IMG/VR virus record: IMGVR_UViG_3300025131_000225
Span: 1 to 33,239 of that record
DNA: 33,239 nucleotides
Reading direction: 5' to 3' (one strand)
From: a virus
Shown: one piece after another, positions 9,839 to 29,654 of the stretch
How positions within the stretch are numbered: position 1 is the stretch's first letter
How the letters are laid out: each line of letters opens with the position of its first letter
Notes under the pieces: model-generated
Told to the model about the DNA's origin: nothing
The model's database searches: none
The model's input: the letters and a program-made list of their open reading frames with translations, nothing else
Translations under genes and position numbers: made by a program

Positions 9839-10423
9839 ATGATACTTGGTATAGATATATCTACCAGCATAACTGGCTTTGCTGTTGTTGCAGAGGGCGA
9901 AATTGTTTTTTATGATTCTGTTGATTTGCGAAAATATAAAAACTTATTTGAGAAAGCAGAAAGAATAAAAGAAGCACTATTCAATCTGATGGACAACTAT
10001 CAATATGAAAGAGAAGAACATTGGCTAGCTGAAGATCAGGACAAAGAGAATAAGATTAACCACATCTATATCGAGCAGTCTCTTCATATGTTTATGGGCG
10101 GAAAGTCTTCAGCAAAAACCCTCTCAACTCTCACTCGTTTTAACGGCATTGTTTCATGGCTTACTTACGAGATGTTTGAGATGGAGCCAAAATATATCGC
10201 CGCAACATCCGCACGCAAGCACGCTGGCATTAAAGTTCCGAGAGGACAAAAAGCAAAACAAGTTGTTTTGCAACATTTACTTGACAACGAGCCTGCTTTC
10301 AAGATACAATATACAAAGCACGGAAATCCGAAACCTGAGTCGTATGATCGTGCGGACGCAATTGTTATAGCAAAAGCAGGGTGGGCGATTGAACAAGCAA
10401 GCAGCGAAGAAGATACTGAATGA
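9839..10423 (+). CDS. RuvC-like Holliday junction resolvase (194 aa)
   Basis: RuvC-family nucleases cut four-way DNA junctions with a cluster of acidic residues on an RNase H fold. Here the first strand reads MILGIDIS with Asp6. The second acidic residue is Glu79 in HIYIEQS, and the final pair is Asp170 and Asp173 in SYDRADAIVIA, so the D, E, D-x-x-D set is complete. The length (194 aa) fits RuvC, which is about 170-180 aa. In T4 the analogous role, resolving branched replication DNA before packaging, belongs to the unrelated gp49, so this would be a functional replacement. The downstream primase starts inside this gene's 3' end, consistent with a replication and recombination operon. Confidence 0.85.
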   Translation: MILGIDISTSITGFAVVAEGEIVFYDSVDLRKYKNLFEKAERIKEALFNLMDNYQYEREEHWLAEDQDKENKINHIYIEQSLHMFMGGKSSAKTLSTLTRFNGIVSWLTYEMFEMEPKYIAATSARKHAGIKVPRGQKAKQVVLQHLLDNEPAFKIQYTKHGNPKPESYDRADAIVIAKAGWAIEQASSEEDTE

Positions 10424-11327
10424 GGCATTTGGTTCTTCATACTCAAAGGGAACCGAGTTACTTTTCACGTGTCCGTCGTGTAATCATCACAAGCATAAAT
10501 TCTCAATTAATGTGGATAAAAATGCTTTTAAATGTTGGGTGTGCGATTATCGTGGCCGTAATATTAGGCGCCTTATTAGGCGTTTTGGTACGTATATACA
10601 ATTACAAAAATGGGACCAAGCTTTCGGCCGTACAGATCTGGAGAGATTTGATGATCTCTTTGTGGGAAGAGTCGAAGAGAGAAGTCATCAGAAACTGGAA
10701 CTCCCGCCAGAGTTTATAAGCCTGTGTCATCATAGTGCACCGAAGACTGGCCTCTATGCACTCAAATATCTGAACTCGCGCGGAATTACAACGGAAGATA
10801 TCCTCAAGTGGAAGATTGGGTATTGCTTCAGCGGAGAATATAGAAATAGAATAATAGTTCCTTCTTTCGATGACGAAGGGGATGTTAGTTATTTTATAGC
10901 ACGCTCTTATAGCGGAGATTCATATAAGTATAAAAACCCTCGCGTCTCTAAAAATATTGTGTTTAACGAGCTATACGTTGATTGGAACAAAGACCTGACA
11001 ATTGTTGAGGGAGTGTTCGATGCGCTTGTGGCTGGAAATGCTGTACCCATTCTAGGCTCAACGTTGAGATCAGATTCAAGACTTATACAGAAAATTGTCG
11101 CGAATGATACTCCGGTATATATCGCTCTGGATCCCGACGCGCGGTCAAAAGAAAACAAAATTATTCAAACACTTCTTCGGTATGATATCGAATTACATAA
11201 GATAGACGTGAGCGGCTATGAAGATGTGGGCTCGATGCCCAAAAATGTGTTTGAGGAAAGAAAGCAAAACGCTGTCTTTATTGACAGAGATAACTATTTA
11301 TTGTTAGATTTACTATCGTCTATATGA
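10389..11327 (+). CDS. DnaG-like DNA primase with zinc finger and Toprim domain (312 aa)
   Basis: The product should synthesise RNA primers for lagging-strand replication. The N-terminus holds a four-cysteine zinc ribbon (Cys28, Cys31, Cys49, Cys52: CPSC and CWVC). The C-terminal half carries Toprim signatures: Glu207 in LTIVEGVFDAL and the DxD pair Asp248/Asp250 in ALDPDAR. The length is close to T4 gp61 (about 340 aa). TTG 10389 is the best start I see. It overlaps the resolvase gene by 35 bases, with AGGGTGGG just upstream. No helicase domain is fused, so a separate helicase gene should lie elsewhere in the genome. Confidence 0.8.
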   Translation: MNKQAAKKILNEAFGSSYSKGTELLFTCPSCNHHKHKFSINVDKNAFKCWVCDYRGRNIRRLIRRFGTYIQLQKWDQAFGRTDLERFDDLFVGRVEERSHQKLELPPEFISLCHHSAPKTGLYALKYLNSRGITTEDILKWKIGYCFSGEYRNRIIVPSFDDEGDVSYFIARSYSGDSYKYKNPRVSKNIVFNELYVDWNKDLTIVEGVFDALVAGNAVPILGSTLRSDSRLIQKIVANDTPVYIALDPDARSKENKIIQTLLRYDIELHKIDVSGYEDVGSMPKNVFEERKQNAVFIDRDNYLLLDLLSSI

Positions 11328-11336
11328 GGGCTTATA

Positions 11337-11384
11337 ATGAAAATCACAAAAACACAACTTAAACAGATCATCAAGGAAGAACTT
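11337..11384 (+). repeat. Dispersed 5' gene-start repeat, copy 1
   Basis: The first 48 bases of this gene match the first 48 bases of the gene at 19423 at 45 positions, and the first 27 bases are identical. Related copies open the 11676 and 19116 genes and lie inside the 12287 gene. The DNA identity includes synonymous positions, which suggests fairly recent copying rather than only protein-level constraint. Confidence 0.7.
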
Positions 11385-11675
11385 GAAGAGGCCTCTTATC
11401 CTCTTAAGAATGTTCCTCAAGATACTGTGACTGCAGGCGCGCCTGGAGAACAGGCAGTCACGCAAACAATGAGAGCACCCAACCAACAAGAAGAGGCATC
11501 GCAACTTTTTGGAGGTCGCATGAATATCGATATATCTAAGCATGCCTATCGTATAGGTCAGCATTTGGGTCCAGATCACGCAAAGCGTGTAGCCATGGCT
11601 TTGAGCACCGCTGCACCCCACGCCGGCGAACAAATGCTCTTAGGTGCCCAGCATGGCTTCGGAGACAACGATTAA
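11337..11675 (+). CDS. Small protein with MKIT-type N-terminal peptide (112 aa)
   Basis: The protein opens with MKITKTQLKQIIKEELEEA, a short amphipathic basic-then-acidic helix shared with several other genes in this window. It contains IKE, which fits the (L/I)xE consensus cut by T4-type prohead proteases. The next ~55 residues are polar and Gln/Pro/Thr-rich and probably disordered. The last ~50 look helical, with HAYRIGQHLGPDHAKRVAMAL suggesting a small helical bundle. A GAGGG element overlapping the primase stop serves as ribosome binding site. The function is unknown. If the N-terminus is a prohead-targeting tag, the product would be a minor internal head protein. Confidence 0.75.
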   Translation: MKITKTQLKQIIKEELEEASYPLKNVPQDTVTAGAPGEQAVTQTMRAPNQQEEASQLFGGRMNIDISKHAYRIGQHLGPDHAKRVAMALSTAAPHAGEQMLLGAQHGFGDND

Positions 11676-12290
11676 ATGAAAATCACAAAATCACAACTTA
11701 AGCAACTTATCAAAGAAGTCATTAGCGAGGCTTGGGATGATAATGATGATGAGTGGCTGACTGCCGATGAAATGCGCAAGAGCCCTCGCAGTAAGATGAT
11801 GGGCCCTTCCCCGATTGCTGGACAAGAAGATCCTTCCGATACAGAGGGGGGCTATACGATGGCCCAAGAAGAAGAGAACTTTCGCACTGTAGACTACATG
11901 ATTGATTTTTATCGTGAAAAACCACGTATGTGGCAATGGGCCGAGAATCAGTATCACGATATGGCCCACGGCAATGATCCCGAAGGAATACGTTCTGAGA
12001 TGTATTCCGACTGGTCTGATGAAGACTTTGCAGAGGTGATTGCAGCTATGGGTGAATCTCCTATGTATTACGAAGAAAAGGACAAATCTTTTTCAGAAGC
12101 CGGCGAAGAGATTGAAAAGAAAGGCACCGAAGGCGTTTTTACGGCTAAAGCCAAGAAAGCAGGAATGGGCGTACAGGCCTACGCCAAGAAAGTTTTGGCC
12201 AAAGACAGCAAAGCTAGCACAAAAACCAAGAGGCAGGCAGCCTTTGCGAAGGGTGCCGCAACTGTAGCTCGGAAAAGAAAAAAGAAATGA
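11676..12290 (+). CDS. Protein with MKIT-type N-terminal peptide and basic DNA-binding-like tail (204 aa)
   Basis: The ATG directly abuts the previous stop. The N-terminal peptide MKITKSQLKQLIKEVISEA contains ISE|A, an (L/I)xE-type site. The middle (~25-145) is acidic and Trp/Tyr/Met-rich. The C-terminal ~55 residues switch to a strongly basic Ala/Lys region (GVFTAKAKKAGM, then QAYAKKVL, then RQAAFAKGAAT, ending in Arg/Lys). This resembles, from memory, a short conserved C-terminal domain of phage and giant-virus proteins annotated DUF5872 or similar. A packaged DNA-binding protein, analogous to T4 internal proteins, is my inference. The stop overlaps the next ATG (ATGA). Confidence 0.7.
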   Translation: MKITKSQLKQLIKEVISEAWDDNDDEWLTADEMRKSPRSKMMGPSPIAGQEDPSDTEGGYTMAQEEENFRTVDYMIDFYREKPRMWQWAENQYHDMAHGNDPEGIRSEMYSDWSDEDFAEVIAAMGESPMYYEEKDKSFSEAGEEIEKKGTEGVFTAKAKKAGMGVQAYAKKVLAKDSKASTKTKRQAAFAKGAATVARKRKKK

Positions 12291-13054
12291 AGATCACCAA
12301 GAGCGAACTTAAACAATTCATTATTGATGAATTTAAGGTCGTTGGAGGTGTTGGAGATCCTAATTTGATCAATCAGATTGGACAGACTCCCACATCTCCG
12401 CAGTTAGGCTCTGTGGCTACTCAGGGTTCCGCAGCTGCGACAGCGGGTTCGCCAGATGACCTTAAACAAATCTTCTCTAATTTAAATAAGATAAGGCCAG
12501 CTTTGCTTAAAATGGTAGCAAAAGGGCTTAAAAATCCCATTGATGTTACAAAGATGCTAAAGTTCTATGCAGATCAAAAGAACTTAAATTCACTGTTGGC
12601 CTATTTCGCTAAAGAATTGACAGCAGAAGTCCCGGCTAATTCTACCGATGAACAAGTTATAGAATACCTCAATAAGAACACTGAGGCACTCATACAGCTT
12701 GGAATAAAACACTATAATAGTGCCACCGCACAAGGAGTTAAGATGGAGCGAAGAAATAAAATAACAAAAACACAACTTAAGCAGATTATCAAAGAAGAGC
12801 TTGACGAAAGTCTCGGTGGCATGCGACCCACAAAACCCGAGTATTCTCACGTAAGTGGTAAAGGATACGTAGATGCCCCAGCTGGCATGCAGCCACAGCC
12901 AAAAACATATGCTATAAATAATGATGTTATAGCTGCCGTTGATGATGACGGAAGAGTGGAAGTTTATACCGGTGCGGATCCCAAAGGTGTTCTGGATTTA
13001 TTAAAAAGACTTGGCTATACATATGCTAATTTCCCTGTTGGGGGTCCAGCTTAA
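12287..13054 (+). CDS. Two-unit protein with N-terminal and internal MKIT-type peptides (255 aa)
   Basis: The protein starts with MKITKSELKQFIIDEF and is followed by a Gly/Ala/Thr/Ser-rich linker and a helical region (residues ~60-145). At residue 153 there is a second Met followed by RRNKITKTQLKQIIKEELDES (residues ~155-175), a full second copy of the tag. After it comes a small domain (~75 residues) ending in an alpha/beta segment with DDDGRVEVYTG and VLDLLKRLGY. The simplest reading is two ancestral cassettes joined in frame by loss of a stop codon. Because Met153 has its own strong ribosome binding site, a separate 103-residue product may also be made. Functions of both halves are unknown. 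Confidence 0.7.
   Translation: MKITKSELKQFIIDEFKVVGGVGDPNLINQIGQTPTSPQLGSVATQGSAAATAGSPDDLKQIFSNLNKIRPALLKMVAKGLKNPIDVTKMLKFYADQKNLNSLLAYFAKELTAEVPANSTDEQVIEYLNKNTEALIQLGIKHYNSATAQGVKMERRNKITKTQLKQIIKEELDESLGGMRPTKPEYSHVSGKGYVDAPAGMQPQPKTYAINNDVIAAVDDDGRVEVYTGADPKGVLDLLKRLGYTYANFPVGGPA
12732..12745 (+). promoter_or_regulatory. Internal Shine-Dalgarno and ATG inside the 12287 gene
   Basis: AAGGAG (12732-12737) lies five bases before an in-frame ATG (12743-12745), an ideal initiation signal buried within an open reading frame. The ATG immediately precedes the second MKIT-type tag. It would start a 103-residue product spanning 12743-13054. Confidence 0.55.
12758..12802 (+). repeat. Dispersed 5' gene-start repeat, internal copy
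   Basis: These 45 bases encode KITKTQLKQIIKEEL within the 12287 gene and match the corresponding 45 bases at the start of the 19423 gene at 41 positions. This is the only copy found inside a longer open frame. Confidence 0.65.
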
Positions 13055-13056
13055 TA

Positions 13057-13197
13057 ATGCTTAAAAAGCTCTCACGATATCTTTTTAAAAAAGGCATAAG
13101 TGATATAGAGTTTTTAAAAATTATCGTGGTTGTTATAATGTCAGCTACATTTATGGGCGTTATGCTTTATGGGGCGATAGGGGCCCTCCTACTATAA
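13057..13197 (+). CDS. Small single-pass membrane protein (46 aa)
   Basis: An ATG three bases after the previous stop opens a 46-codon frame ending at TAA 13195-13197. The first ~20 residues are Lys/Arg-rich (MLKKLSRYLFKKG), followed by a ~24-residue hydrophobic segment (from IIVVVIMS to IGALLL) that would span the membrane with the basic end in the cytoplasm. No strong ribosome binding site is seen apart from a G-run, so expression would depend on coupling to the upstream gene. The basic-plus-hydrophobic design makes chance coding less likely. Roles such as a holin-like, superinfection-exclusion or host-membrane peptide are possible but not shown. Confidence 0.5.
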   Translation: MLKKLSRYLFKKGISDIEFLKIIVVVIMSATFMGVMLYGAIGALLL

Positions 13198-13204
13198 AAA
13201 AGTC

Positions 13205-13233
13205 TTGACAGCAGCTCCTACATGGGTTATGAT
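13205..13233 (+). promoter_or_regulatory. Sigma70-type promoter upstream of the Mre11/Rad50 gene
   Basis: TTGACA (13205-13210) is followed after exactly 17 bases by TATGAT (13228-13233), a near-perfect host-type promoter. It sits in the 68-base gap between the 46-residue membrane protein and the start of the recombination gene at 13266. This suggests early transcription of the downstream block by unmodified host RNA polymerase. Confidence 0.75.
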
Positions 13234-13265
13234 ATATTAACGGCATAACTACGTCTGGAGGGAAC

Positions 13266-16200
13266 TTGAAGTTTGCACATATAAGCGATACTCATATCAA
13301 AAATCTGAAGTATCATTACGAGTATAGAATTGTTTTTGAGCAATTATACGAAACATTACGAGAACAAGAAGTCGATTACATTGTTCACTGCGGAGATATC
13401 GCGCACACAAAAACACAAATCTCACCAGAGTTTGTGGAAATGTGTTCTGATTTCTTCCGCAACTTAGCGGCGATTGCGCCCACATATATTATCCTGGGCA
13501 ACCACGACGGCAACTTAAAGAACAGCAGCCGCCAAGATGCGCTCACGCCGATTGTAGATGCGTTAAACTTACCCGGACTCAACTTGCTCAAAGATTCTGG
13601 CGAAACACATTTGGACGATAAGTTCTGCTTGAATGTGCTTTCCGTGTTCGATCGAGAGCAATGGATTAAACCAAGCAATCCAGACAAGATCAACATCGCA
13701 CTTTACCATGGCTCAATTAGCAACTGCAAAACAGATGTCGGTTGGACGATGGTTAACGGCGAAGATACAATCACGATCTTTGATGACCACGATTTCTCAA
13801 TGCTGGGCGACATTCACAGGCGCCAGTTCTTGGATGAAGAAGGCCGCGTATGGTATGCTGGCTCAACAATCCAGCAGAATCACGGCGAGACTAACGACAA
13901 AGGCATTCTCATTTGGGATATTAGATCAAAGAATGATTGGGACATTGAGCCGATTGTTTTAAAGAATCCAAAACCATTCTTCACGATCCCTCTTACACTA
14001 AAGGGGCGAATGCCTCGCAAGATTGACGTGCCCATGGGTGCCAGACTTCGCCTTGTTAGTACCAACAACTTACCGCTCGATGTTATGCGCAGAGCAATGG
14101 ATATTGCGAAACACAGATTCAAGCCAGAAAGCATTTCGTTTCTGAACCGCGCCAGCGGACAACGTGGAAATGTGGAGGATATTACTAACGGATTACAAAC
14201 AGAAAACCTGCGAGATCCAAAGATCCAAGAGGAGCTTATGGATGAGTACCTTAAGGACTATCAGGTGCCCGCTGATACGATGGAAAAAGTTTACGAGCTT
14301 AATCGTACTTACAACAAAATTATCGAGGAGAAAGAGGAGATAGCGCGTAATGTAAATTGGAGACTAAAGTCGTTTGAATTCGATAACCTTTTTAATTATG
14401 GAGAAAATAATGCTGTCAATTTTGATAGGCTTAATGGTATTGTTGGCATTTTCGGAAAGAACTTTAGCGGTAAGAGTTCTATTATTGACGCTGCTCTTTA
14501 TACTCTTTTTAATACAACTTCAAAGAATGAGCGAAAGAACCTCAATGTCATCAACCAGAATAGAGATAGCGGCCGCGGCAGACTTACGATTGAGGCCAAC
14601 AATGCCACGTATACTATTGAGCGAGAATCGGTAAAATATACAAAGCGATTAAAGGGCGTTGAAACGCTTGAAGCTAAAACCGATCTAAACTTTGAGATGC
14701 GGGATCACATCACTGATGAAGTAATTTCACTTAACGGCACAACTCGTAACGAGACAGACGCAAACATTCGCAAGCATTTTGGAACGATCGATGACTTTAT
14801 GGTTTCGTCATTGGCCTCCCAGCACGGAGCGCTATCGTTCATTGACGAAGGTTCAACGGGTCGAAAGGAAATCATCGCAAAATTTCTAGATCTTGAAATC
14901 TTTGAGAAGAAATTTAGAATGGCCAAAGACGATTCCGTTGAGGCGAAAGTTATGCTCAAGAAGCACGAAGACAAGAACTATGACGAAGAGATTGACGTCG
15001 TGAGTGAGATCTTGGAAGATCATCGCGATAGCGTGGTAGCCAATAAATATTTCTGTACCGAATTAAGAGAAGAACTGGCTCTCTTGCAAGATAGTCTCGG
15101 CACTATAGAAACGCAGATCTCCACAATCCCCACTAAACTTATTGATATCGCTAAGCTCCGCGAAGAACAAAAAGGTAAAACTGAAAAAGTCATAGCTCTC
15201 ACAGAGAAAATCAAAGAACAATCGCAAGAAATTACGAGAAAGAAGAGAGTAATCGAGACTTCTAAAAGCAAGACTAACAAAGTTGATATCGCCAAATTCA
15301 TGAAGCTTCAGATGCAGATTGATCAGCTGCGTGCAAAAGAAAAGGAACTCAGAGAAGAGCTATCCGAGATTAAGAAAAAGGAAAAGTTATTAGAAGAGCA
15401 CGAATATGATCCGGATTGTAAATTTTGCTGTGAAAATAAATTTGTTAGGGAAGCCCATGTTGCTGTTGCCAGCAAAGACCTCGCAGAACACGAACTTCGG
15501 AATACGACAGTCGACTTGGATGCTCTTAATCCGAGCGATGTGTTTACTAAACTTATGGAACACAGCCGCCTCACTGAGTTAATTAAAAAAATTGAAGCAG
15601 AAACAACGCAAGCCGATCTTGAGCGAGAGCGAAACAAAACCGTTAAGTCAAAGATAGAACTCGCCCTTAAAGACATCTCTTCGAAGATTGCCGAGTATGA
15701 GGACAATAAGGAAGCAATTGAGAACCTTGAGAAATTGCTCGGCAAAAAGCGCTCTTTAGAGAAGAGCATTGAGGGCGATAACAAGAAGATTGCATCTTGC
15801 GAAGAAGAGACGCTTGACCTCGTTAAACTTGTGGGATCCTACGAACAACGAGTAGAAACTCTCCGAGAGCAAAAGCAAGAATATCACGACCTAAGATCAT
15901 CTTTTGCCGCATACGATTTGTTTATGCGATGCATGCACCCTAACGGAATCGCCTACGATGTTATCAAGAAAAAGATACCGGTAATTAATCAAGAGATCGC
16001 AAAGGTTCTCGCTAATATTGTGGAATTTGAGATTTTCTTTGAGAGTTCTGGCAATAAATTTGACATCTTCATTAAGCATCCACAATACGATGAGCGCCCA
16101 ATTGAAATGGCCTCTGGCGCCGAAAAGACAATGGCGGCGATGGCCATTAGATTGGCGCTTCTGTCCGTCTCATCGCTACCCAAAAGTGATCTGTTTATTC

Positions 16201-16382
16201 TTGACGAGCCAGGGACAGCACTGGATGAAGAAAATATGGAGGGTTTTATTCGAATTTTGGAACTAATTAAAGTGTATTTTAAGAATGTTTTGCTTATCTC
16301 GCACCTTGATTCTCTCAAAGACTGTGTTGACATGCAAATCGTTATAGACAAAAAACGCGGATACGCCAGGGTTAATCAATAA
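13266..16382 (+). CDS. Fused Mre11-Rad50 (SbcD-SbcC, gp47-gp46-like) recombination nuclease/ATPase, 1038 aa
   Basis: One uninterrupted frame joins two proteins that are normally separate. Residues 1-~340 form an Mre11/SbcD phosphoesterase with all metal-site motifs: SDTH (Asp8, His10), CGD (Asp44), GNHD (Asn79, His80, Asp81), then YHGS, LGDIH and a WYAGS-x4-NHGE segment. From ~365 a Rad50/SbcC half follows: Walker A GIFGKNFSGKSS (~394-405), long coiled coils, a zinc-hook Cys718-x2-Cys721, the ABC signature ASGAEKTMA (~949) and Walker B FILDEPG (~980). T4 gp47/gp46 resect DNA ends for recombination-dependent replication and host DNA breakdown. Translation starts at TTG 13266, four bases after GGAGG. 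The stop overlaps the next ATG (TAATG). Confidence 0.93.
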   Translation: MKFAHISDTHIKNLKYHYEYRIVFEQLYETLREQEVDYIVHCGDIAHTKTQISPEFVEMCSDFFRNLAAIAPTYIILGNHDGNLKNSSRQDALTPIVDALNLPGLNLLKDSGETHLDDKFCLNVLSVFDREQWIKPSNPDKINIALYHGSISNCKTDVGWTMVNGEDTITIFDDHDFSMLGDIHRRQFLDEEGRVWYAGSTIQQNHGETNDKGILIWDIRSKNDWDIEPIVLKNPKPFFTIPLTLKGRMPRKIDVPMGARLRLVSTNNLPLDVMRRAMDIAKHRFKPESISFLNRASGQRGNVEDITNGLQTENLRDPKIQEELMDEYLKDYQVPADTMEKVYELNRTYNKIIEEKEEIARNVNWRLKSFEFDNLFNYGENNAVNFDRLNGIVGIFGKNFSGKSSIIDAALYTLFNTTSKNERKNLNVINQNRDSGRGRLTIEANNATYTIERESVKYTKRLKGVETLEAKTDLNFEMRDHITDEVISLNGTTRNETDANIRKHFGTIDDFMVSSLASQHGALSFIDEGSTGRKEIIAKFLDLEIFEKKFRMAKDDSVEAKVMLKKHEDKNYDEEIDVVSEILEDHRDSVVANKYFCTELREELALLQDSLGTIETQISTIPTKLIDIAKLREEQKGKTEKVIALTEKIKEQSQEITRKKRVIETSKSKTNKVDIAKFMKLQMQIDQLRAKEKELREELSEIKKKEKLLEEHEYDPDCKFCCENKFVREAHVAVASKDLAEHELRNTTVDLDALNPSDVFTKLMEHSRLTELIKKIEAETTQADLERERNKTVKSKIELALKDISSKIAEYEDNKEAIENLEKLLGKKRSLEKSIEGDNKKIASCEEETLDLVKLVGSYEQRVETLREQKQEYHDLRSSFAAYDLFMRCMHPNGIAYDVIKKKIPVINQEIAKVLANIVEFEIFFESSGNKFDIFIKHPQYDERPIEMASGAEKTMAAMAIRLALLSVSSLPKSDLFILDEPGTALDEENMEGFIRILELIKVYFKNVLLISHLDSLKDCVDMQIVIDKKRGYARVNQ

Positions 16383-17221
16383 TGAAAATGAAATTATTAA
16401 TGGAAAACTGGAGACAGTTTGTCAATGAAGAAGATCGTCAAGCAAAAGCATATTTAGACAAAGTGCTCGACATTGATAATTATGAGCAGTATGTTGCTCA
16501 CTTGGGAAAAGCCGCCGGCGATCCCAGAGTAAAGGCTGTCATTGCAGGGGGCAGAGGAGACGGCAACCCCGAAGATGAGGCTGTCGGTGTTTCTCCTGGC
16601 GGCGGTCCTTGCACACAGTTCTTACCGGTTCAAAATGAAATCGATTTATCTAAATCGCTCGGCTTCCCTGCAACAAAGGATCCCTCTAATGTTGCCAAGG
16701 TATTGGCCGGTGGCCCCATGACTGCGGCAGATCTTGGGGGAAGTCCGATTGTTAGCGCTGTCGAACGATACATTGTTGATGGCCATCACCGCTGGTCGCA
16801 GGTGTATATGCTGAATCCTGATGCCGTCATTGAGACAATGGATATAAAAATACCGGATCCGGAAGCAGCGCTTAGGGCAATGCAGGCTTCGATTGCTGTG
16901 GTACAGGGAAAAGTGCCGTCACAGCATGCTGATCCTGGTCTAAACATTTTTAACATGTCAGATAAAGCAATGGTGGCGTGGATGAATCAAAACTTTAGCG
17001 ATCAATTTGTAGAAATTTATGTCGCCAATTCAGATGCCACAGATAAGGCAGGAGTTATAGAGCAGATTCTATTTAATATCCAACTTATGCGAGAGCAGAA
17101 CCCTCCTCAAACAGATACGAGTCGCGGCTATATGCCTCAGACAGGTAAAGCCGGCGACATTGATCGCGAGCTAGATGCTTTAGAGGCCGGCCATGTTAAC
17201 TGGAAAGAGCCGGCAGAATAA
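16382..17221 (+). CDS. ParB/sulfiredoxin-like protein with capsid-targeting-like N-terminus (279 aa)
   Basis: The N-terminus MKMKLLMENWRQFVNEE is a short amphipathic peptide of the class shared with the 18379 and 28102 genes and similar in design to the T4 capsid-targeting sequence. Residues ~80-155 look like a ParB/sulfiredoxin fold: FLPVQNEIDLSKSL, then VERYIVDGHHRWSQVY, with the characteristic DGHHR at residues 133-137. Families with this motif include ParB-type CTPases, nuclease-like ParB proteins and phosphotransferases such as SerK and sulfiredoxin, so the activity cannot be fixed from sequence. It lies between the Mre11-Rad50 fusion and a tubulin-like gene. A role in DNA partition, or as an enzyme packaged in the head and injected, are competing readings. 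Confidence 0.7.
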   Translation: MKMKLLMENWRQFVNEEDRQAKAYLDKVLDIDNYEQYVAHLGKAAGDPRVKAVIAGGRGDGNPEDEAVGVSPGGGPCTQFLPVQNEIDLSKSLGFPATKDPSNVAKVLAGGPMTAADLGGSPIVSAVERYIVDGHHRWSQVYMLNPDAVIETMDIKIPDPEAALRAMQASIAVVQGKVPSQHADPGLNIFNMSDKAMVAWMNQNFSDQFVEIYVANSDATDKAGVIEQILFNIQLMREQNPPQTDTSRGYMPQTGKAGDIDRELDALEAGHVNWKEPAE

Positions 17222-17236
17222 ATAACAAGGAAAATA

Positions 17237-18382
17237 ATGAGCACAAACAACGACAATAAGGATAATGAATTTGATTTTCTGCCACCGGCAGAACCTCCCC
17301 CTTCTTTTAACCAAGAGAAGGACAGTTACCACGAACAAGTAGACGCCGAAGATTTTGGCATGGTAGAGGACTTTGGACTTCAGATGGAATACTCCGACGA
17401 AGATCTTTTACCCGAGAATACTGCCCCTTCCTCTATCAATGTTGGGTTTGTAGGCGTTGGAGGCGGTGGCAATAAAATGGCCAACGCATTTTTAGAGCTT
17501 GGTTTTAACAAGACATTGCTTGTAAACTCGACAGGCAAGGATATCCCAAAGAACGTGGAAGAAGATCACGTTGTTCTTATTCCCGATAGCGATGGCATCG
17601 GAAAGAATGTAGATTATGGTAAAGAGATCTTATCACAGAACGGCGCCGTCGTTGAAGACGCACTACGCATTAAGCTTGGAAAAGTAGATTGGTTGTTTGT
17701 TTTAGCCGGCGGCGGTGGCGGTACCGGAAGTTCTGTAACTGCGCTACACGCGGTATTTGAACGTTATATGAAATCTATTCAAGCTTCCGGAAAGGTTGTA
17801 TATATCGTCTCTTGGCCCACCGCGCAAGAAAACCTTAACCCTACAATTGCTCGTAATGCGTTAACACTAGCAAACGATGTTGCTAGATATCCGCATATCA
17901 TTCTCGACAACGAACGAGCCACTCGTCTACTTCGCGGCAGAATCGGCATGCTCGGCATGTATCCTGTCGCCAACACACAATTTGCTAAGTCGTTCGCCCA
18001 GGTGCTAAAACTCTCCACCGAGGATTCACCGATCCAATCTTTTGATAGTAAAGATCTGGAAACATGCTTGGGCAACGACGGGAGAGCTTTTCTCGGCTCA
18101 ACCATGATAAAAGATCCAAATACTGGAAAGCTTGGATCGGTGATCCTCCACAACTGTATGAATAGGTCTGCCTGTCCTCCACCTAAAGGCAAAGCCGCCG
18201 CAGGTTCGTTAATCTTAGTGGCGTCTGAGGAAATGGTGGCAGATCCAAAAGTTAGCAAAAACATTGAGTCAGCAATCGCTTATGTCGGCGGTCGATGCGA
18301 GACACTATTCTCTGGCGTTTACGTGCGGAAGAATGTGCCTGGATTGATTGCGATACTAAGCATGAATGGATTGGCGACATGA
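17237..18382 (+). CDS. FtsZ/tubulin-superfamily GTPase (381 aa)
   Basis: The product should be a cytoskeletal GTPase that polymerises head to tail. Residues 1-66 are an acidic, probably disordered arm. The GTP-binding core starts with VGFVGVGGGGNKMAN (glycine loop 73-80). The tubulin signature is AGGGGGTGSS (157-166). The T7 synergy loop appears as SFDSKD (268-273), keeping the two acidic residues of the FtsZ NxDxxD motif while the Asn is Ser, followed by GRAFLGS, which resembles FtsZ GYAMMGS. The C-terminus ends in a short SMNGLAT. The length is close to FtsZ (about 380 aa). Phage tubulins are known (PhuZ centres phage DNA, TubZ partitions plasmids), and this one looks closer to FtsZ by eye. 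An AAGGA ribosome binding site precedes the ATG. Confidence 0.85.
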   Translation: MSTNNDNKDNEFDFLPPAEPPPSFNQEKDSYHEQVDAEDFGMVEDFGLQMEYSDEDLLPENTAPSSINVGFVGVGGGGNKMANAFLELGFNKTLLVNSTGKDIPKNVEEDHVVLIPDSDGIGKNVDYGKEILSQNGAVVEDALRIKLGKVDWLFVLAGGGGGTGSSVTALHAVFERYMKSIQASGKVVYIVSWPTAQENLNPTIARNALTLANDVARYPHIILDNERATRLLRGRIGMLGMYPVANTQFAKSFAQVLKLSTEDSPIQSFDSKDLETCLGNDGRAFLGSTMIKDPNTGKLGSVILHNCMNRSACPPPKGKAAAGSLILVASEEMVADPKVSKNIESAIAYVGGRCETLFSGVYVRKNVPGLIAILSMNGLAT

Positions 18383-22373: not shown

Positions 22374-23126
22374 ATGAAAATATCCCTACAGAGATTAAGA
22401 GAGATCATAACTGAAGAATTGATTAAAGAAGAGCTTGCTCCAGAGATAGCTGCGCCCGCCATTGCTGCAATGCTCCAGGGAATGGAAGCAGAAGCTACTT
22501 CTGATATTTTCGGAGATGTGTTTACTCATATGTATGGAGAAGCGGCACTCCAAGCGCAGGCGGATGCAGCTCAGCCCGGCGATTTCGAAGAAGAAGGCTT
22601 CCCCACAGAGTACCAACCAGGAGGCGGTGAAGGCGATCGCCCCGTGATGGGATTCAAAGAGGGCATTAGCGACATCATCCAAGAAGAATATTACTTGTAT
22701 AAAATTAAAGATCATATGAGCGCAGAACTTTTAACTGAGGTTCGCGGGATGAACATTGAGGATGCCAGAGAAATTATGGGAAAACTAGATGCTGATCCCG
22801 ATGACCCCACTGTGTCCCGCGAGGATGCTTGGGATGCGAAGATGACCGTGCGCGAATATGAACAAGGCGACTATGCCGACCCCGCAGAGCTACGCCAGCA
22901 AGCAATGACAATGGCCGACGATGTTATCACCAATCCAATGCGCCGCACTACTCGGCAGATCAAACAGTTGGAAGATATGTGGCGAAAATACAAAGGAGAT
23001 CTTCGCAACGCGATAGAGACAATTCGGGCAGATAACAACGAAGAGGAAACGACCGTGGATGCATTGGCTAGTTTTTATGATTACTTAACTTCTGCAGGCA
23101 ATATACAGCAACATGATGTTTCATGA
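22374..23126 (+). CDS. Acidic helical protein with MKIT-like N-terminal peptide (250 aa)
   Basis: The protein starts MKISLQRLREIITEELIKEE, a diverged tag with ITE and IKE sites. The rest is strongly acidic and Ala/Met/Gln-rich. It has a Gly/Pro/Glu linker around residues 65-90, a FKEGISDIIQEEYYLYKIKDH segment resembling a second, weaker copy of an (I)IxEE helix, and a helical C-terminal half with many Asp/Glu. The stop overlaps the terminase start (ATGA). Position immediately before the large terminase is where a small terminase often lies, but the sequence shows no clear DNA-binding domain, so I do not call it that. Confidence 0.65.
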   Translation: MKISLQRLREIITEELIKEELAPEIAAPAIAAMLQGMEAEATSDIFGDVFTHMYGEAALQAQADAAQPGDFEEEGFPTEYQPGGGEGDRPVMGFKEGISDIIQEEYYLYKIKDHMSAELLTEVRGMNIEDAREIMGKLDADPDDPTVSREDAWDAKMTVREYEQGDYADPAELRQQAMTMADDVITNPMRRTTRQIKQLEDMWRKYKGDLRNAIETIRADNNEEETTVDALASFYDYLTSAGNIQQHDVS

Positions 23127-29000: not shown

Positions 29001-29046
29001 CAAATGGATGTTACAGCCGGTTCGCCGTTGCTGTAAAGGATCGTGA
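28981..29046 (+). CDS. Possible 21-residue peptide nested at the protease start
   Basis: An ATG at 28981, six bases after GAAGGAG, opens a 21-codon frame. It overlaps the end of the membrane-protein gene in another frame and ends at TGA 29044-29046, overlapping the GTG start of the protease. The peptide is MNTSWTNKWMLQPVRRCCKGS (split here as MNTSWTNKWM, LQPVRRCCKGS). Without it, the strong ribosome binding site would lie more than 60 bases from the protease start. It may be a leader peptide coupling protease translation, or only chance. Confidence 0.4.
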   Translation: MNTSWTNKWMLQPVRRCCKGS

Positions 29047-29654
29047 CTATGGGACAGAAACTTTTACGAGAATACTATGAGCTTTGTGAAGGTGGCGTTT
29101 GTCAAGATCTTTTGACTGAAGAAGAAAAAAGATTTGTGGCAAGTGGCGGCATGATTTTGTCTGGCAAATTGCAAGAAGCAGATATCCAAAATGGTAACGG
29201 AAGGGTATACCCCCACCGAGTGCTTATGCGTGAGATGAAAAATTATCAAAAGCTCGTCAAAGAACGTCGCGCCCTTGGAGAATTAGATCACCCAGAGGAT
29301 TCTGTCATTAATCTTAAGAATGCGTCTCACATGATTACTGAAGTGTGGTGGGATAACAAATCGGTTATGGGCAAAGTGAAAGTGCTTAACACTCCCTCTG
29401 GAAAAATACTAAAAGAGCTAGTAAGCGACGGCGTTAAACTTGGCATTTCTTCTCGCGGAATGGGATCTGTTACCGAGAGCGCGGGCCAGACGATAGTAGA
29501 AGATGATTTTCAATTGATATGTTTTGATTTTGTGTCCGAGCCTTCTACTCCCAATGCATTCATGATGCAAGAAGCAAAGCAGTTTAAAAATAAAGTATTC
29601 ACCAAAGCCGATCGTATCAATAGATTATTGAACGAGGTTTTGGACAATGAGTGA
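29043..29654 (+). CDS. Prohead core protease (gp21-like, S80-type serine protease), 203 aa
   Basis: This enzyme matures the prohead by digesting scaffold and trimming head proteins after (L/I)xE sites in T4. Hallmarks seen are NGNGRVYP, LGELDHPED with the catalytic His (residue 83 counted from GTG), GISSRGMGS with the catalytic Ser (136 or 137) and FVSEPSTPNAF near the C-terminus. The length is close to T4 gp21 (212 aa). GTG 29043 or ATG 29049 could start, with AAAGGA upstream suiting either. A self-cleavage-like LTEEE occurs near residue 25. The gene is flanked by head genes and overlaps the next one by eight bases. Confidence 0.92.
   Translation: MTMGQKLLREYYELCEGGVCQDLLTEEEKRFVASGGMILSGKLQEADIQNGNGRVYPHRVLMREMKNYQKLVKERRALGELDHPEDSVINLKNASHMITEVWWDNKSVMGKVKVLNTPSGKILKELVSDGVKLGISSRGMGSVTESAGQTIVEDDFQLICFDFVSEPSTPNAFMMQEAKQFKNKVFTKADRINRLLNEVLDNE

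Follow-up and report, generated by a model that had tools for sequence, protein, structure and literature searches.

A doubly tagged cargo gene in a marine T4-like phage and its possible origin as a fusion of neighbouring cassettes

The internal head proteins of phage T4 are described as reaching the prohead core by means of an N-terminal sequence that is later removed by gp21 (PMC9026906, PMC5694885); the rule given for gp21 is a cut after L/I-X-E, and the CTS propeptides are 10–19 residues long (PMC9026906). The locus considered here resembles the T4 proteins that carry a CTS (IPI–IPIII, Alt) in that a short N-terminal peptide with an L/I-X-E inside it is found on unrelated cargo, and in that a gp21-family protease is encoded in the same genome as the tags. 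By this likeness, the tag is probably a signal for entry into the head and for cutting there. Unlike the T4 CTS, the KITKxQLKQIIKEEL tag is lineage-specific, is also repeated within one ORF and is known here from sequence alone.

Two other described systems also place more than one product in a single reading frame. The two-polypeptide phage endolysins, as presented in PMC9430671, resemble our locus in that a single ORF contains a second ATG, in frame and served by a Shine–Dalgarno (SD) sequence, but here the inner cassette has lost its own start and no endolysin domain was found. The polyvalent proteins of phages and conjugative elements, in the account of PMC5512222, likewise hold several units per chain, which are possibly separated after synthesis; they have their own peptidase domain alongside recognisable effector domains, whereas neither half of our protein contains a known domain and the cutter would be a separate prohead protease acting at the repeated tag. 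Among the papers searched, tandem tags of this kind were not found described in connection with polyproteins and the prohead protease, nor with shared N-terminal motifs and capsid targeting, and five 8-mers of the tag gave no match in the literature searched.

The cassette slot and its doubly tagged gene

The window, i.e. the whole stretch of DNA analysed, is one virus record of 33,239 bases from a marine T4-like phage, which encodes a T4-type portal (PF07230, E 9.1e-75) and a large terminase. A slot for cassettes is bounded by the primase (10401–11327; phrog_47) and a 1038-aa SbcD–SbcC protein (13266–16382), and three ORFs within it, beginning at 11337, 11676 and 12287, start with the nearly identical peptide MKITKxQLKQIIKEEL. 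The features concerned are as follows.

11337–11675, plus strand: neighbouring single-tag cassette, with a relative (L237, 9209) at 76%
11676–12290, plus strand: single-tag cassette, neighbour of the 12287 ORF, which it overlaps by 4 nt
12287–13054, plus strand: double-tagged ORF of 255 aa, stop TAA, both halves coding in the same frame
12287–12337, plus strand: tag 1, MKITKSELKQFIIDEFK, matrix score 19.5, with IDE at residues 13–15, so that [LI]xE ends at residue 15
12338–12742, plus strand: first cargo body, no relatives detected
12732–12737, plus strand: AAGGAG, 5 nt upstream of the ATG at 12743, with a predicted anti-SD duplex
12743–12745, plus strand: in-frame ATG (Met153), the start suggested by the earlier note
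12745–12748, plus strand: GGAG, 7 nt upstream of 12756, the commonest spacing for tag-gene starts
12755–12757, plus strand: AAT, in the place that a start codon occupies in 548 of 561 tags
12758–12808, plus strand: tag 2, KITKTQLKQIIKEELDE, matrix score 52.2, with IKE at residues 168–170 and LDE at 172–174
12809–13051, plus strand: second cargo body, 81 aa, no relatives detected
13057–13197, plus strand: 46-aa membrane-like protein, downstream border of the slot, with counterparts in six of the seven relatives examined (none seen in L088)
29043–29654, plus strand: prohead protease, Peptidase_S77 of the T4 gp21 type (PF03420, E 5.6e-31; phrog_207, E 3.6e-55)

The tagged genes in this slot differ from one to another of seven relatives, the conserved 46-aa protein usually coming after them (6/7), and in L094 a cassette of the 11337 type is found beyond that protein, immediately before SbcDC. 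The slot is therefore a site of cassette exchange. The SbcD-like and SbcC-like halves next to it share a single ORF of the window (phrog_100 on residues 1–461, phrog_77 on 334–1037), and further downstream, at 17237–18382, a GTPase of the Tubulin/FtsZ type is weakly supported by Pfam (PF00091, E 4.2e-7, 30.9 bits, just below the curated cut-off).

Coding signal in the frame of the 12287 ORF amounts to 34.9 and 29.4 nats for its two halves, the other frames being strongly negative, and the score of tag 2 exceeds the training-set median of 46.9; this second tag is no chance match. The ORF with its in-frame Met153, the 103 residues from there to the stop and the AAGGAG at five-base spacing are all present as the earlier note described them. 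Its second MKIT-type peptide after Met153 is a near-perfect tag, but one that would read M-ERRN-KITKTQLKQIIKEELDE and so be four residues longer than a tag beginning at its own methionine, and the IKE that it placed at about residue 172 lies at 168–170, with LDE occupying 172–174. The 255-aa protein has no Pfam family above the curated cut-off and no PHROG hit.

Tags and tagged junctions in related phages

A 16-position matrix, built from 162 tags of relatives, was used to scan 352 loci including the window (3.9 Mb), at a score threshold of 14, or 12 for the second tag of an ORF. The loci came from portal, SbcDC and primase scans, from seven phage records and from the listed matches of a DNA pattern search in which no start codon was demanded. 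The scan gave 561 distinct tags scoring at least 14, with a start codon directly before 548 of them. The remaining 13 comprise six N-terminal tags, explained by a one- or two-residue extension or a slip of register, and seven internal ones, among them tag 2 of the window. All seven of the latter belong to ORFs with a tag at their N-terminus, although such ORFs supply only some 4.7% of residues when all open frames of at least 100 aa are counted, and this indicates that internal tags without a start are real features. The tag is carried by unrelated cargo, 258 cargos falling into 131 clusters with 97 singletons.

Two tags occur in 16 of 545 tagged ORFs, namely the window gene and 15 genes of related phages, so the earlier note's view of two cassettes fused in frame has parallels well beyond the window. 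An internal ATG is kept in nine of them (L060, L348, L138, L131, L264, L323, L257, L086 and L298) and the internal start is absent in seven (the window, L223, L269, L290, L283, L319 and L282). For six of the 16 (L060, L131, L264, L282, L283 and L319) the second cassette occurs alone elsewhere, and the comparison with separate halves that had been proposed therefore succeeds, though for sister genes only. Adjacent tagged-to-tagged junctions number 199, of which 16 are fused, 80 overlap (64 by 4 nt and 4 by 26 nt) and 103 leave at most 60 nt between the genes; 163 further non-adjacent pairs were left out of this count. The relatives thus support reading the window gene as a fusion, and point to a wider pattern in which head-cargo genes are fused and may use their tags again within the chain.

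A small C-terminal cassette, SNIYKWC, shows this most clearly. It is found as six stand-alone copies, in which KITK or KVTK follows an ATG or GTG, and as three copies fused to three unrelated tagged proteins. The fused copies have lost the start and KITK and retain the IIKEEL-type core (EIIKEEL, QIIKEEL or EIIREEL), which favours a role of the internal tag at the protein level, most simply as a site for the prohead protease. In effect, such fusions dissect the tag by natural means, and they suggest that its front serves initiation or targeting and its back cutting. KITK is intact in none of the six other start-less internal tags, compared with 397 of 548 start-preceded tags; it is intact in tag 2 of the window, which is therefore not a typical old polyprotein tag.

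In a different gene family, represented in the window by the gene at 22374, L089 (from 11753; same gene in L223) has an internal tag-like stretch without a start, KESLAELTEIIKEEIN, to which the window's MGFKEGISDIIQEE is similar but weaker.

Starts at the second tag and the origin of the fusion

The duplex of AAGGAG before Met153 with the anti-SD has an energy of -8.0 kcal/mol. Of the 111 in-frame ATGs inside 11 other ORFs of the window, 3 reach this strength and one has a 6-base SD match; the SD at 12743 exceeds chance. An internal product from 12743 is thus possible. The earlier note went further, proposing that both cassette starts had been kept and that the fusion arose by loss of a stop. 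The first proposal is not supported at the second cassette, whose canonical start is absent, AAT standing in its place, and the MERRN extension is matched by none of the other 560 tags; the second is probably wrong, as the local sequence better fits loss of one base at the second start codon. The absent start, together with a GGAG at the modal spacing, fits such a loss fusing two overlapping cassettes. The adjacent frame across tag 2 stops at 12778–12780. In a layout common among relatives, the upstream gene runs into the following tag and stops 26 nt past the start of that tag (6 of 83 long upstream frames), and the stop in the window, at the corresponding place in the tag, matches this layout, seen in six relatives and four tagged-to-tagged junctions, which again fits one lost base. 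A single base deleted at the second start codon would account at once for the joining of the frames, the loss of the start and the preservation of the tag, and it is from this layout that we infer it. Gapped DNA alignment of the junction with other tags gave no information, since the regions upstream of tags cannot be aligned, and the in-frame upstream frames of L135, L082 and L181 were discarded as untagged and probably non-coding read-through.

In the reading we prefer, two adjoining cargo cassettes were recently fused in frame, probably by one-base loss, and the product would be cut at its tags by the gp21-type protease; we put the chances of this reading as a whole just short of even. The source of the fusion would be a tandem array of genes with a common, capsid-targeting-like N-terminal tag, in which one base lost at the second start codon of overlapping cassettes would both remove that start and bring the frames together. 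A protein of all 255 residues would then be translated from 12287 and brought into the prohead core by tag 1, and the protease would cut after E15 and after E170 or E174, yielding two mature fragments, the first from residue 16 to 170 or 174 and the second of 81–85 residues. Neither half has a relative in viral_contigs, among the tagged cargos or in the 50 phage contigs behind the loci (where the queries lacked a positive control), nor has the C-terminal half in the phage collection, so ancestral separate genes are not seen, which counts against this reading. No unfused copy of the window gene was found, and the flanking DNA (11000–16400) has no match in the phage collection.

Three other explanations have to be weighed against this one. 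That the gene yields both the fusion and a 103-residue protein from ATG 12743, with its own Shine–Dalgarno, draws on the strong duplex just described, on the canonical internal ATG kept in nine of the 16 ORFs with two tags, six of which (L086, L131, L138, L257, L298 and L348) show, as judged by eye, a site resembling an SD, and on the precedent of in-frame internal starts in phage endolysins, as PMC9430671 describes them. The four extra residues speak against such a start, as does its spacing, since among 198 tag starts with an SD match 7 nt is the mode (52) and 5 nt is found in only 10; moreover, the start is kept in none of the three SNIYKWC fusions, and we consider this dual output unlikely. 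We think it similarly improbable that the real virus has two separate, overlapping cassette genes, which appear joined through a one-base error of assembly or sequencing in the second start codon. A single base does separate the record from the overlapping arrangement seen in relatives, and misassembly would leave the same picture; no tag but tag 2 combines an intact KITK with four residues between it and the nearest start, and no second copy was found besides this record. Real in-frame fusions are nevertheless common at such junctions (16/199). Over 9,795 nt the window agrees with a contig obtained independently from this virus (L004) except for 6 mismatches and a single gap of 3 nt, thus with no frame-breaking indel, though the gene lies outside the match.

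It is also conceivable, though we regard it as quite unlikely, that the fusion is real and stays whole, as one uncut protein of 255 residues, the internal tag being a relic or the tag no substrate for the protease. The case for cleavage is an indirect one and the cargo bodies show no absolute depletion of [LI]xE, both of which suit an uncut chain; set against it are the three fusions that keep the core of the tag while losing the start, and the [LI]xE that 15 of the 16 internal tags have retained in its conserved place.

Cleavage motif and wider occurrence

It is this retention, together with the S77 protease in the genome, that makes cleavage at the second tag plausible in the fusion we favour. 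Within the first 20 residues [LI]xE is found in 261 of 266 tags, compared with 15.6% of 1500 body windows, and in the 255-aa protein it occurs only within the two tags, at residues 15, 170 and 174. At that body rate about 2.3 sites would be expected by chance in the cargo bodies of this protein, with P ~0.1 for their absence, so the restriction is suggestive and chance could account for it. Cargo bodies overall contain 350 such sites against 352.8 expected from shuffles (controls being the first 800 of 921), patterns related to [LI]xE are enriched in them, and depletion was dropped as a proof of cleavage.

More broadly, marine T4-like phages may possess tag-punctuated polyproteins, in which head cargo genes of tandem arrays would be repeatedly fused in frame and the inner tag would act as a site for the prohead protease in trans, allowing several cargo proteins to be delivered in fixed ratio from one translation product; we offer this tentatively, as somewhat more likely to be wrong than right. 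If internal tags are cut, a phage would thereby have a simple means of packaging several internal proteins as a single chain and releasing them. For annotation, a second tag should be looked for in tagged ORFs before an internal start is assumed. Laboratory testing is possible, since the cultured Flavobacterium phage immuto (L356, MW353176.1) has similar tags at the N-termini of its proteins (MKKSQLRQIIKEALD, MKKSELVKLIKEELN and MKKSQLREIIRKELQ); a further N-terminus, FDLKKFLVENKLT or similar, is common to three proteins of that phage.

Synonymous codons within tags are skewed relative to the bodies of the same ORFs (Leu7 is CTT in 69% versus 29%, e.g. window 12776–12781), as if tags spread or become homogenised as DNA. 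A second tag type, resembling ExWxxFLxE, was noted by eye in the window at 16382, 18382, 28102 and 29647, with MENWRQFVNEE, FENWNRFLSEA, MESWNGFLEEE and DAWRQFLKE as examples, the ORF directly after the protease being included. A third common N-terminus, M(A/P)(R/L)RKNxKxxDPRYFMxEK, is found on different proteins after the primase in L084, L085, L086, L088, L089, L093 and L094.
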